This document shows, one piece after another, positions 8,221 through 10,745 of a stretch of DNA of 64,000 bases (position 1 is its first letter; every line of letters starts with the position of its first letter). The DNA comes from Maribellus sp. YY47 (GTDB lineage: Bacteria; Bacteroidota; Bacteroidia; Bacteroidales; Prolixibacteraceae): the NCBI RefSeq assembly GCF_023111095.1, contig NZ_JALGYW010000017.1:1-64000 (forward strand). Reading direction: 5' to 3'. The notes beneath the pieces are model-generated. The model searched no databases. It was not told the DNA's origin and saw only the letters and a list, made by a program, of their open reading frames with translations. A program made the position numbers and the translations under genes.

Positions 8221-9560
8221 CACACACATGGCTTCGTTCGTTTCACTACCTCGCTATGACAAGTTGTTGGGATTTATCCGGCAGCGGACAGCGGCAAACA
8301 GGTTCACAGCAGATTACACTAGGTCCGCTGCCCGTGATTTTAAAAGCTTGCGTCATTGCGACGACGATCCGTCTGCTGACGGAAGGAGGAAGCAATCTAA
8401 GGGTGTTGTTTGTCCATTAAGTCTTGCCAATTAGGATTTCTTTGATTAATCAAGTCAATTTTCTTTTGACGGGAGCCGGCTTTAAGTTGTTTCTCCCGGC
8501 TTATTGCATCCTGAATATTTAGAAATTCTTCGTAATAAACCAATTTGGTGACTTTATACCTTGATGTAAACGAATTGCGAAAGTATCCTTCTTTGTGTTG
8601 CTGAATTCTTTTACTTAGATCGGAGGTAACGCCAACATATAGTACTGAATTGGTTTTGTTGGTTAGAATGTAGATATAAGCGTGTTGGGTCATCATGAAG
8701 TATTTTTATAAAAGTTACGAAAATTATAAAAACCAAGATAGCTTCGTTCGTTTCACTACCTCGCTATGACAAGTTGTTGGGATTTATCCGGCAGCGGACC
8801 GTGTAGTTTGTTGTCGGAAACCTGATTCTTCTGGTCCGCTGCCTGTTGATTATTAAAGCTTGCGTCATTGCGACGACGAACCGTCTGCCGACGGAAGGAG
8901 GAAGCAATCTGTTTGTTTGGTATTGTGTGCGAAGTCGTGGAATCAAGCCAGATGGCTTCGTTTCGCTCCACTCTCTCGCCATGACAACGGTCTGGTGTAT
9001 ACCCGGCAGCGGACAGCGGCAAACAGGTTCACAGCAGATTAACTACGTCTGCTGCCTGTTGATAACAAAGCTTGCGTCATTGCGACGACGAACCGTCTGC
9101 CGACGGAAGGAGGAAGCAATCTGTTTGTTTGGTATTGTGTGCGAAGTCGTGGAATCAAGCCAGGTGGCTTCGTTCGCTCCACTCTCTCGCCATGACAACA
9201 GTGTGGTGTATATCCGGCAGCGGACAGCGGCAAAAAAGTTCACAGCAGATTACACTAGGTCCGCTGTCTGTTGATAACAAAGCTTGCGTCATTGCGACGA
9301 CGAACCGTCTGCCGACGGAAGGAGGAAGCAATCTGTTTGTTTGGTATTGTGGGCGAAGTCGTGGAATGAAGCCAGATGGCTTCGTTTCGCTCCACTCTCT
9401 CGCCATGACAACAGTGTGGTGTATACCCGGCAGCGGACAGCGGCAAACAGGTTCACAGCAGATTACACCAGGTCCGCTGCCTGTTGATTGTTTGAATGAA
9501 AGTCATTGCGAGCGCGAGTGCGCGGGAGAAGCAATCTCTTTACTCTGCTGTACAACATTT
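8221..9560. repeat. 212-bp tandem repeat array, interrupted by a GIY-YIG gene
   Basis: CGTCATTGCG recurs at 8351, 8863, 9075 and 9287, with AGTCATTGCG at 9501; intact units are spaced 212, 212 and 214 bp. Each unit contains, in order, CATTGCGACGACG, GGAGGAAGCAATCT, a spacer of about 43 nt, GGCTTCGTTTCGCTCC, CTCTCGCCATGAC, then GCAGCGGAC and its complement GTCCGCTGC about 33 nt apart. In the first unit the spacer is replaced by the GIY-YIG gene. The small open frames on both strands here are products of the repeat. Related single copies lie at 3912-3950 and 10556-10745. Confidence 0.85.
8397..8696 (-). CDS. Small GIY-YIG nuclease-superfamily protein
   Basis: A 99-aa single-domain protein of the UPF0213/UvrC-like GIY-YIG group. 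It has YIYIL at 8-12 (the GIY element), YVGVT at 20-24 (the YIG element), the catalytic-type Arg30 in LSKRIQQHK and Glu68 in ISREKQLK. The basic C-terminus (SRQKKIDLIN) is typical of the family. The fold normally cuts DNA; the cellular role of the stand-alone bacterial members is unknown. The gene replaces the spacer of one repeat unit: its TAG stop (8397-8399) overlaps the end of the repeat motif AGCAATCT, and the next repeat block begins at 8741, 44 bp before its start. TAACTTTT on the minus strand just upstream resembles a -7 box. Confidence 0.9.
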   Translation of the reverse strand: MMTQHAYIYILTNKTNSVLYVGVTSDLSKRIQQHKEGYFRNSFTSRYKVTKLVYYEEFLNIQDAISREKQLKAGSRQKKIDLINQRNPNWQDLMDKQHP

Positions 9561-9806
9561 TGATTGTCAGTCCTGTTTTTTATAATTTGCAAACAAGTTA
9601 AAAACCAAATCCAATAAAGTAACCGACAAACAAGCATTTATTCCATACGATTTTCGAAACGATCCCATTGAGCACACATGTACCACAGTACATGTACACG
9701 CCTTCCGAAACCGTTGGCGTGGATACGAAAAAGGCCACCTGCGCCGGCAAGCAAACAGGTGACCCCGAATTAATAATAAGTTCCTTAATTATTAAATCAA
9801 TTAAAT
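9561..9806. other. Intergenic region with a small hairpin
   Basis: ACATGTAC (9676-9683) and GTACATGT (9688-9695) form an 8-bp inverted repeat with a 4-nt loop, about 110 bp before the 9807 start. The remaining sequence becomes AT-rich next to the start codon. No gene or promoter box is clear. Confidence 0.4.
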
Positions 9807-10166
9807 ATGGGAAATTTAACTGAAAGTAAGAAGCGCGATTTTGTAACGCAGCTTACTGGTCTGTTGGAACAGAACACCCAATTATTAACCGATAAAGGTT
9901 ACGATCCTACGGCGAAAATCGCCCAGTTACGAGCTGAAATCATCGCAGCCGACACGGCTGAAGTGAAACAAATGGAAGCCAAGGCGGCCGCCAAAAACGC
10001 GACCAAACTGACGCTCGAAACATTGAATACTGCCTACACCGATGCTTCGGCAACGGTCGATCTTATTTCGGGTTTGTTGGGAAAAAACGACAACCTGTTG
10101 CTCGAAATCAAAAAACTCCGTAATTCCGGAAAATCTTCGAAAAAAGAACCCGTAACGGAGCAATAA
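9807..10166 (+). CDS. Small cytosolic helical protein
   Basis: A 119-aa protein with no signal peptide or membrane segment. Residues 1-115 read as mostly helical and Ala/Leu/Lys-rich: KRDFVTQLTGLLEQNTQLL, then a linker GYDPTAKI, a helix IAQLRAEIIAADTAEVKQM, and a last helix VDLISGLLGKNDNLLLEIKK. The tail is basic, then acidic. It resembles the small four-helix or coiled-coil proteins found in single copy in many Bacteroidota, but I cannot name the family. The gene is monocistronic: upstream is the repeat array, and a perfect intrinsic terminator follows 10 bp after the stop. Confidence 0.7.
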   Translation: MGNLTESKKRDFVTQLTGLLEQNTQLLTDKGYDPTAKIAQLRAEIIAADTAEVKQMEAKAAAKNATKLTLETLNTAYTDASATVDLISGLLGKNDNLLLEIKKLRNSGKSSKKEPVTEQ

Positions 10167-10176
10167 TAAAGTGATA

Positions 10177-10208
10177 AAACCGGAGGAGCTTGCCGGCTCC
10201 GGTTTTTT
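10177..10208 (+). terminator. Intrinsic terminator of the 9807 gene
   Basis: AAAACCGGAG pairs with CTCCGGTTTT across an 11-nt loop and runs into TTTTTTCTTTTT. This is a textbook rho-independent terminator, directly after the stop codon. Confidence 0.85.
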
Positions 10209-10276
10209 CTTTTTCCCGCTCAGCCTTTGTAATTCTCCCCTACGTTTTTAGTTTTCCAAGCCCGGTAATCATGCTT

Positions 10277-10521
10277 TTACCCAAGGTAATTGCTTTCATC
10301 CCCAAGCGGATCATAGATTTTACCTAAAGGATTGTTTCGTTACCCATGGTAATATCTATCATCCTCGAGGTAATGGTTTCGATTACCAAGGTAACCATAG
10401 ATTTTACCTAAAGGATTGCTCTCTTACCAAAGGTAATATTTCTTATCCCCGAGGTAAAAATGCTGATTACCACGGTAAAAATCGTTTTACCCCCGGTAGT
10501 TTGTCCGTTACCAAAAGTTTG
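10277..10521. repeat. Array of twelve 14-bp dyads at 21-bp spacing
   Basis: Consensus wTTACCnnnGGTAAt. Clear examples are TTACCCAAGGTAAT (10277), TTACCCATGGTAAT (10340), ATTACCAAGGTAAC (10382), TTACCAAAGGTAAT (10424) and ATTACCACGGTAAA (10466). Weaker members lie between them at 10298, 10320, 10361, 10404, 10445, 10487 and 10508. Centres are 20-22 bp apart throughout, mean 21, which is two turns of B-DNA, so all sites face the same side of the helix. A right half-site precedes at about 10264. There is no coding potential. Confidence 0.75.
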
Positions 10522-10555
10522 AAATCCGCTGAAAGCCCTGTGAATAAAGGGATAC

Positions 10556-10745
10556 GTGCGCAATGGGCAAGGCAATCAAACCAGATGGCTTCGCTCGCTG
10601 CACTCTCTCGCCATGACGAGAGTCTGGGGTGTGTCCTGCAGCGGACACCGGCAAACAGGTTCACGGCAGATTACACTACGTCCGCTGCCTATTGATTATT
10701 TGAATGAAAGTCATTGCGATCCCGGGCACCCGGGAGAAGCAATCT
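10556..10745. repeat. Solo copy of the 212-bp repeat family
   Basis: GGCTTCGCTCGCTGCACTC, CTCTCGCCATGAC, GCAGCGGAC, GGTTCACGGCAGATTACACT, GTCCGCTGCC, GTCATTGCGA and GGAGAAGCAATCT appear in the same order as in the 8.2-9.6 kb array. It is non-coding; the short open frames here are repeat shadows. Confidence 0.7.

Follow-up and report, generated by a model that had tools for sequence, protein, structure and literature searches.

The centromere of plasmid F, sopC, is made of about 12 tandem 43-bp units, each carrying a short inverted repeat bound by SopB, and replication iterons are direct repeats of 17-22 bp that are accompanied by a Rep protein and by DnaA boxes. What identifies the known binding-site arrays is their sequence. 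Here we describe an array in a 64,000-nucleotide stretch of Maribellus sp. YY47 (contig NZ_JALGYW010000017.1, positions 1 to 64,000, hereafter the window), belonging to a group of arrays in which the register is kept while the sequence drifts, so that each locus may have a motif of its own, or dialect. Like sopC, the window array is a tandem series of about twelve palindrome-bearing units, spaced by a near-integral number of helical turns; unlike sopC, its unit is 21 bp, it is chromosomal, and there are several copies and several motifs per genome.

Position, lattice and conservation of the array

The array occupies positions 10264 to 10521, with no strand assigned, and consists of a first half-site followed by twelve 21-bp units with imperfect palindromes, as established by sequence reading and by lag and palindrome scans. 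An earlier note, made from the letters alone, had placed it at 10277..10521; this extent was slightly short, since the first half-site lies at 10264 and a conserved tail runs to about 10551. The word GGTAA occurs eight times (at 10264, 10285, 10348, 10369, 10390, 10432, 10453 and 10474), and all differences between these positions are multiples of 21. The left-arm word TTACC (at 10277, 10320, 10340, 10383, 10404, 10424, 10467, 10487 and 10508) shows a jitter of about 1 bp, because the palindrome centre measures 2 or 3 bases, the lattice itself being exactly 21 bp. The spacing of 20-22 bp given in the earlier note therefore holds for its mean of 21 and for the two-turn register, which is exact, the jitter being confined to the left arm; its three central bases were inexact. 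Both 5-bp arms are intact in five units (three with a 3-base and two with a 2-base centre) whereas the remaining ones retain a single intact arm or no more than CC..GG; twelve imperfect dyads is therefore a fair description.

The lag-21 identity of the array is 0.455, as compared to at most 0.373 when 497 other 254-bp pieces were taken from the window, and at most 0.369 in 2000 mononucleotide shuffles. A dialect-blind palindrome-period detector gave 21 as the best of 12 periods tried (4.4 standard deviations over 20 dinucleotide shuffles). A super-repeat of 84 bp is also present (lag-84 identity 0.58), and the mean identity between units is 0.49. A count of the pattern across the entire window, two mismatches being allowed, was only weakly raised (35 vs. 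25.05 ± 4.88, a value reached in 4 of 100 shuffles); the signal of the array lies in clustering and register.

Substitution rates among the window array and six close copies follow the palindrome: eight of the ten arm positions have rates of 0.00-0.19, whereas centre and spacer have 0.17-0.44, in agreement with the conserved arms and variable centre that had been proposed. Four further groups of arrays show the same tendency toward palindrome-shaped constraint.

A 281-bp array query searched against 61 genomes found 17 places (E ≤ 6.1e-5) in 11 genomes, all of the same genus: three in the own genome and the others in 10 same-genus relatives. The 24 relatives outside the genus gave no match better than 0.0388. 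The two weakest places (genomes G026 and G024) fail the lag scan, which used loci selected as array holders. The copies are scattered, and several have unrelated flanks. Two groups of loci (L028/L032/L033/L034 and L027/L029/L030), which are syntenic sets and not independent loci, keep the lattice apart from small gaps and a shortened L034, so that the loss of spacing or arms in related strains, which the earlier note had named as a refutation, was not observed. The gaps observed in arrays measure 2 bases in L029, 38 and 38 in L034, 4 in L054, and 1 and 63 in L057. The cargo beside the kept array differs among L027, L029 and L030. At another locus (L024:6258-7480), an insert is flanked by a direct repeat of 272 bp whose start lies in the end of the array, and this insert itself contains another roughly 21-bp repeat with the motif GCATTCCGC.

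The upstream gene fam1, array dialects and a joint exchange

On the plus strand upstream of the array (9807-10166) lies a gene, here called fam1, coding for a 119-residue protein with no function assigned by Pfam, NCBIfam, homologue search or AlphaFold2. It has no Pfam family, and its NCBIfam matches are all below threshold. The AlphaFold2 model is all-helical (predicted local distance difference test 87.5, predicted template modelling score 0.52), and no solved relative was found, either in sequence searches (best E 0.094) or with Foldseek at E 0.001. Homologues are present in 28 of 149 relatives, in 32 of 140 genomes of the family and in 3 of 395 genomes of the class, all three counts including the own genome. 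Among the genera represented by the 20 named loci are Draconibacterium, Sunxiuqinia, Mariniphaga, Mangrovibacterium, Maribellus and Gaoshiqia; the others come from a Marinilabiliaceae bacterium, a Saccharicrinis metagenome-assembled genome (MAG) and unclassified MAGs. Searches for a plasmid or phage origin gave no match for fam1 or the array.

Arrays are linked to fam1 well beyond the window. Duplicates, copies with stops and copies shorter than 90 residues being left out, 39 distinct fam1 loci were collected, and the 37 with at least 300 bp downstream were used for the array scan. The best lag among 15-28 was 21 at 32 of these loci, and 30 of them passed a score of 8; no other lag in this range passed at any of the 37. 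The same score was reached by 25 of 2851 pieces of 560 bp from genome G029.

The unit motif, on the other hand, differs between loci. TTACC/GGTAA is found at L045, L048 and, imperfectly, in the window; the TACCC/GGgAAT type at L040-L042; GTACC/GGTAC at L051; GCCCC/GGGG at L053-L055, L057, L068 and L225; TATCC/GGATA at L083; GACCC/GGTC at L085; TGTCC/GGACA at L078; TCCCC/GGGGA at L081; and further motifs at other loci. Mean motif similarity rises with fam1 identity, from 0.36-0.38 below 65% to 0.48 at 65-75%, 0.68 at 75-90% and 0.92 above 90% (Mantel r 0.52, the largest of 5000 permutations giving 0.36).

One clear species pair, L042 (G036) and L055 (G003), differs as after a joint swap of gene and array, to judge from the alignments. 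The upstream flanks are 94.8% identical over 459 columns, running into the leader, and the downstream flanks 96.9% identical over 1006 bp, starting at the array tail. Between the flanks, only 75 of 118 fam1 residues are identical (64%) and the motif similarity is 0.46. L042 closely resembles other loci, sharing 107 of 118 fam1 residues with L040 and a motif similarity of 0.96 with L041, and L055 resembles L068 (116 of 118 residues, motif similarity 0.94).

In the window, fam1 is followed by a terminator-like hairpin with a T run (10177-10212, plus strand; pattern match at 10185-10200, flanks read), so that the array does lie behind a putative terminator, as had been noted. Six such hairpins were found in the region as compared to 1.8 expected. 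The tail of the array (10522-10551, plus strand) is common to some other fam1-linked arrays, its best match to the reference word in the window being 23/26; at least 19 matches occur at 9 of the 37 fam1 loci, and shuffles reach at most 17. A DnaA box was considered for this tail and rejected, the resemblance being visible by eye in a few loci only. The 5' leader of fam1 (9630-9806, plus strand; 18 leaders aligned) contains a conserved hairpin at about 9733-9764. Of 162 cells, 142 are paired in its 9-bp helix as compared to 40-78 when the helix is slid; 3 pairs have changed on both sides, but so have 3 in the version slid by +3. RNAalifold run on the 18 leaders predicted no pairs, and the hairpin has no Rfam family.

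The wider class of arrays and the neighbouring genes

Arrays with this spacing are also found beside PQLLE genes (NF052641), a family present in 5 of 296 genomes of the phylum. A passing array lies within 560 bp upstream at 20 of 26 PQLLE loci, 15 of them with lag 21 and 5 with lag 20, and downstream at 3 more, where the count of 26 includes twice one locus represented by the neighbouring pieces L209 and L211, and where L240 and L243 may be coding. Each locus has its own motif (L193-L212, L239-L244), in several of them inspection by eye shows a core on the sense strand (e.g. TAAGGA or TAGGA), and some belong to genomes of other families. There is no detectable similarity between fam1 and the one PQLLE protein compared with it (hhalign probability 0.13%). 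A 16-row 21-bp array also stands upstream of an open reading frame (ORF) of 224 residues without assigned function in G038, a genome of another family (L189:2258-2595); a relationship of this protein to fam1 was likewise rejected (hhalign probability 0.07%).

In 1.6 Mb of G029, a threshold of 12 was passed by 12 segments at lag 21, 11 at lag 42, 6 at lag 63 and 4 at lag 41, the other lags from 8 to 69 giving 0-3 segments each, and lags 10, 11, 31, 32, 52 and 53 none (one run of N, showing at every lag, was excluded). Read by eye, the 12 lag-21 segments are three coding coiled coils and nine non-coding segments, and such arrays may be frequent, although eight of these nine are crossed by mechanical ORFs of at least 60 codons. 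Two of the arrays (G029:C1 871161-871351 and 931392-931544) have the common motif GTCCGCAG/CTGCGGAC in opposite orientation, the lag-42 array at 312044 has the same motif as the array at 1175687, and one array adjoins a PQLLE-family gene. Of five lag-21 segments in G060, four are 7-base simple repeats and one is a coding-like repeat by eye. In 453 kb of the own genome, where C2 and C3 were scanned because known copies lie there, six lag-21 segments pass and four were read as non-coding arrays: the window array, two of its dialect, and one of a new dialect at C2:160541-160794 (L253:541-794), which follows a terminator-like hairpin. A 50-kb stretch of E. coli contained no lag array scoring 8 or more. 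No arrays of this kind were recognised, from titles and abstract openings, in searches of an open-access library, and this class, in which the spacing is fixed and the site sequence changes by place, is apparently undescribed. Such arrays escape repeat annotation that groups by sequence.

Downstream of the window array, on the minus strand, are a GYD-domain protein (PF08734, 10835-11164), convergent with the array side, and, as the third gene, a Schlafen group 3 helicase (PF09848, 11733-13709). Defence-type domains were found near 11 of 20 loci by a Pfam scan of ORFs picked by eye, a count that has no background rate and includes syntenic, hence not independent, loci. They comprise the Schlafen group 3 helicase in the window and L078, HNH_2 and a DUF3427 helicase in L073, HNH_2 in L077, type I methylase and specificity subunits in L085, GmrSD_N in L021, L027 and L034, ABC-3C and DUF2326 in L030, and PLDc_2 and DUF2357 with PDDEXK_7 in L072/L031. 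In the eleventh (L084:2-6272), fam1 and the array stand between a Cas9-type gene and Cas1; L086 resembles L084 by sequence, L084 being the one of the two that the Pfam scan covered. The other nine are L022, L028, L029, L033, L075, L081, L082, L088 (DUF2971) and L089 (AAA_15 upstream, ambiguous). On the other side of fam1, positions 8846-9480 of the window hold long near-identical repeats containing CGTCATTGCGACGACGAACCGTCTGCC, which adjoin a GIY-YIG gene (8397-8696).

Explanations considered and comparison with known systems

A register that persists while the sequence drifts, at numerous loci and next to two or more gene families, points to a machinery for which about two helical turns serve as a ruler. 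Constraint on palindromes together with register would most simply reflect a protein recognising dyads and in contact with its neighbours. We therefore tentatively favour the view that the array is a 21-bp-registered DNA docking track for a sequence-specific, oligomerising DNA-binding protein, and that it is one dialect of a wider class. About one dimer would sit on each 21-bp unit, neighbouring dimers touching two turns apart. The dimeric, cooperatively binding protein suggested by the earlier note is plausible. Since the class keeps the lattice and changes the motif by locus, and since cognate pairing is suggested by the fact that paralogous genes have different motifs next to them, a separate cognate binder probably exists for each array. 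Gene and array appear exchangeable together at fam1-type loci, which makes fam1, or its oligomer, a candidate partner. The bound track might act by silencing, insulation or bridging. A bolder proposal, which we consider possible but doubtful, is that the 20/21-bp lattice of roughly 6-16 units, rather than the sequence, is the conserved trait of an undescribed class of intergenic elements in Bacteroidota. Its dialects would be paired with orphan genes (fam1, PQLLE and probably others); gene and array would be swapped as one cassette, protein and track co-diverging into pairs orthogonal to each other, with a possible link to defence-locus turnover. In any case, the fam1-array pairs offer matched and mismatched partners for studying co-adapted recognition. 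The earlier note, which had recognised the array, missed the upstream gene, the dialects of the loci, the joint exchange and the wider, partly non-palindromic class.

Several observations weigh against the docking track. No binding protein was identified in this computational analysis, and bases one and three of the left arm vary like spacer (0.33 and 0.29). A passing array is absent at 7 of 37 fam1 loci, and arrays are present in G004 and G032, genomes where fam1 was not found, so that fam1 is not needed for array persistence. Linkage alone can produce the correlation between fam1 and motif. By the rule used, the terminator-like hairpin precedes only 16 of 30 fam1-linked arrays, and therefore transcription of some arrays is possible. 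Codon-position rates are uneven in one group of arrays, g2 (0.119/0.066/0.162; 84 differences in 728 comparisons). Finally, the period is exactly 20 bp in five PQLLE arrays, and inspection by eye shows no palindrome in many of the PQLLE motifs, which indicates that the helical-face argument is not the whole story. The presentation of all sites on one face of the helix, as first suggested, is weakened by these 20-bp arrays; helical phasing as the full reason is also weakened because G029 contains no arrays of 10/11, 31/32 or 52/53 bp.

If the arrays were transcribed, the 21-nt units might be tandem RNA binding sites, forming a 5' leader at PQLLE-type loci. The position of PQLLE arrays just upstream of the gene, their sense-strand cores and the array upstream of the 224-residue ORF in G038 are in line with this possibility. 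However, a terminator-like hairpin stands before the window array, so exact a register is not obviously needed by single-stranded RNA, and fam1-type arrays show no excess of G-T over A-C mispairs, i.e. none of the wobble asymmetry that would reveal an RNA strand: 60 of each were counted among 1338 pairs of 24 fam1-oriented arrays, and 37 of each among 810 pairs of 13 solo arrays, after dropping arrays with a lag-21 score below 15 (13 of 37 regions linked to fam1, 1 of 14 solo ones) as well as any unit whose palindrome score was below 0.6. Rfam gave seven sub-threshold matches in 9450-10700, none near the gathering score. We regard an RNA-level element as unlikely. The same holds for a mobile or recombination element, similar to repetitive extragenic palindromic (REP) sequences and bacterial interspersed mosaic elements (BIME) or to a miniature inverted-repeat transposable element, for which spread and exchange would be the point, with no dedicated cooperative binder. 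This would fit the scattered copies with unrelated flanks, the cassette exchange, the differing cargo beside a kept array, the direct repeat flanking the L024 insert, and the Y1_Tnp matches in all four genomes searched, in which REP-associated tyrosine transposases and IS200/IS605 types were not told apart. On the other hand, target-site duplications and element ends were not established, no empty site was met, in the course of a non-systematic comparison, and a fourfold variety of motifs on one lattice is unexpected for one transposed repeat.

Two further explanations are far less probable. A neutral minisatellite, its unit length set by a mutational mechanism, could account for the three-unit gap of 63 bp and for a unit length common to many unrelated sequences. 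It is very unlikely in view of the palindrome-shaped constraint and of the presence of arrays at 30 of 37 fam1 and 23 of 26 PQLLE loci, as compared to the rate in random pieces given above; recent slippage of a single unit in the window array, the other refutation named in the earlier note, is contradicted by a copy in another genome that matches 87%, against the 0.49 between its own units. It is equally hard to believe that the arrays are cryptic or former coding sequence for heptad repeats, 21 bp being seven codons, and this we consider the least probable explanation. Many arrays are crossed by open frames, the spacing consists of exact multiples of 3, and g2 is uneven. At least 80% of the window array lies within a single stop-to-stop frame of 147 codons, but the codon-position rates of the window group are flat (0.23/0.23/0.256) and do not support coding, in keeping with its first description as lying outside any gene. 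The rates are also flat in g5, the group with most substitutions (0.292/0.301/0.288), and mildly uneven in g3 (0.138/0.194/0.179) and g4 (0.093/0.101/0.152); the pattern is not consistent across the groups and mostly argues against coding, as do gaps of 1, 2, 4 and 38 bases and the lag-20 class, whose period is not a multiple of 3.

With respect to the described systems, the window array does contain tandem palindromic sites, as in ParABS-type centromeres. However, Pfam found no ParA/ParB-type or Rep domains in 14 distinct window ORFs scanned between 4035 and 21815 (a part of the ORFs there), the copies are scattered, and more than one motif can occur within the same genome; the partition or anchoring site envisaged at first is thus not borne out. 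The arrays resemble iterons in unit length, tandem order and the DnaA-box-like tail of a few loci by eye, and differ in having no Rep gene among the scanned ORFs nearby and no plasmid match for fam1 and array. As in clustered regularly interspaced short palindromic repeat (CRISPR) arrays, tandem units have a partly palindromic conserved part, but the units are 21 bp, with no long unique spacers, and their identity averages 0.49; as far as can be judged from its letters, the L084 array between cas9 and cas1 is not the CRISPR array of that locus. Like REP/BIME and REPIN elements, the arrays are scattered intergenic palindromes, often behind a terminator. Unlike them, they do not form one genome-wide palindrome family, two dialects being found in 453 kb of the own genome, and they have an exact 21-bp register over 8-14 units, a locus-specific motif and a linkage to fam1.
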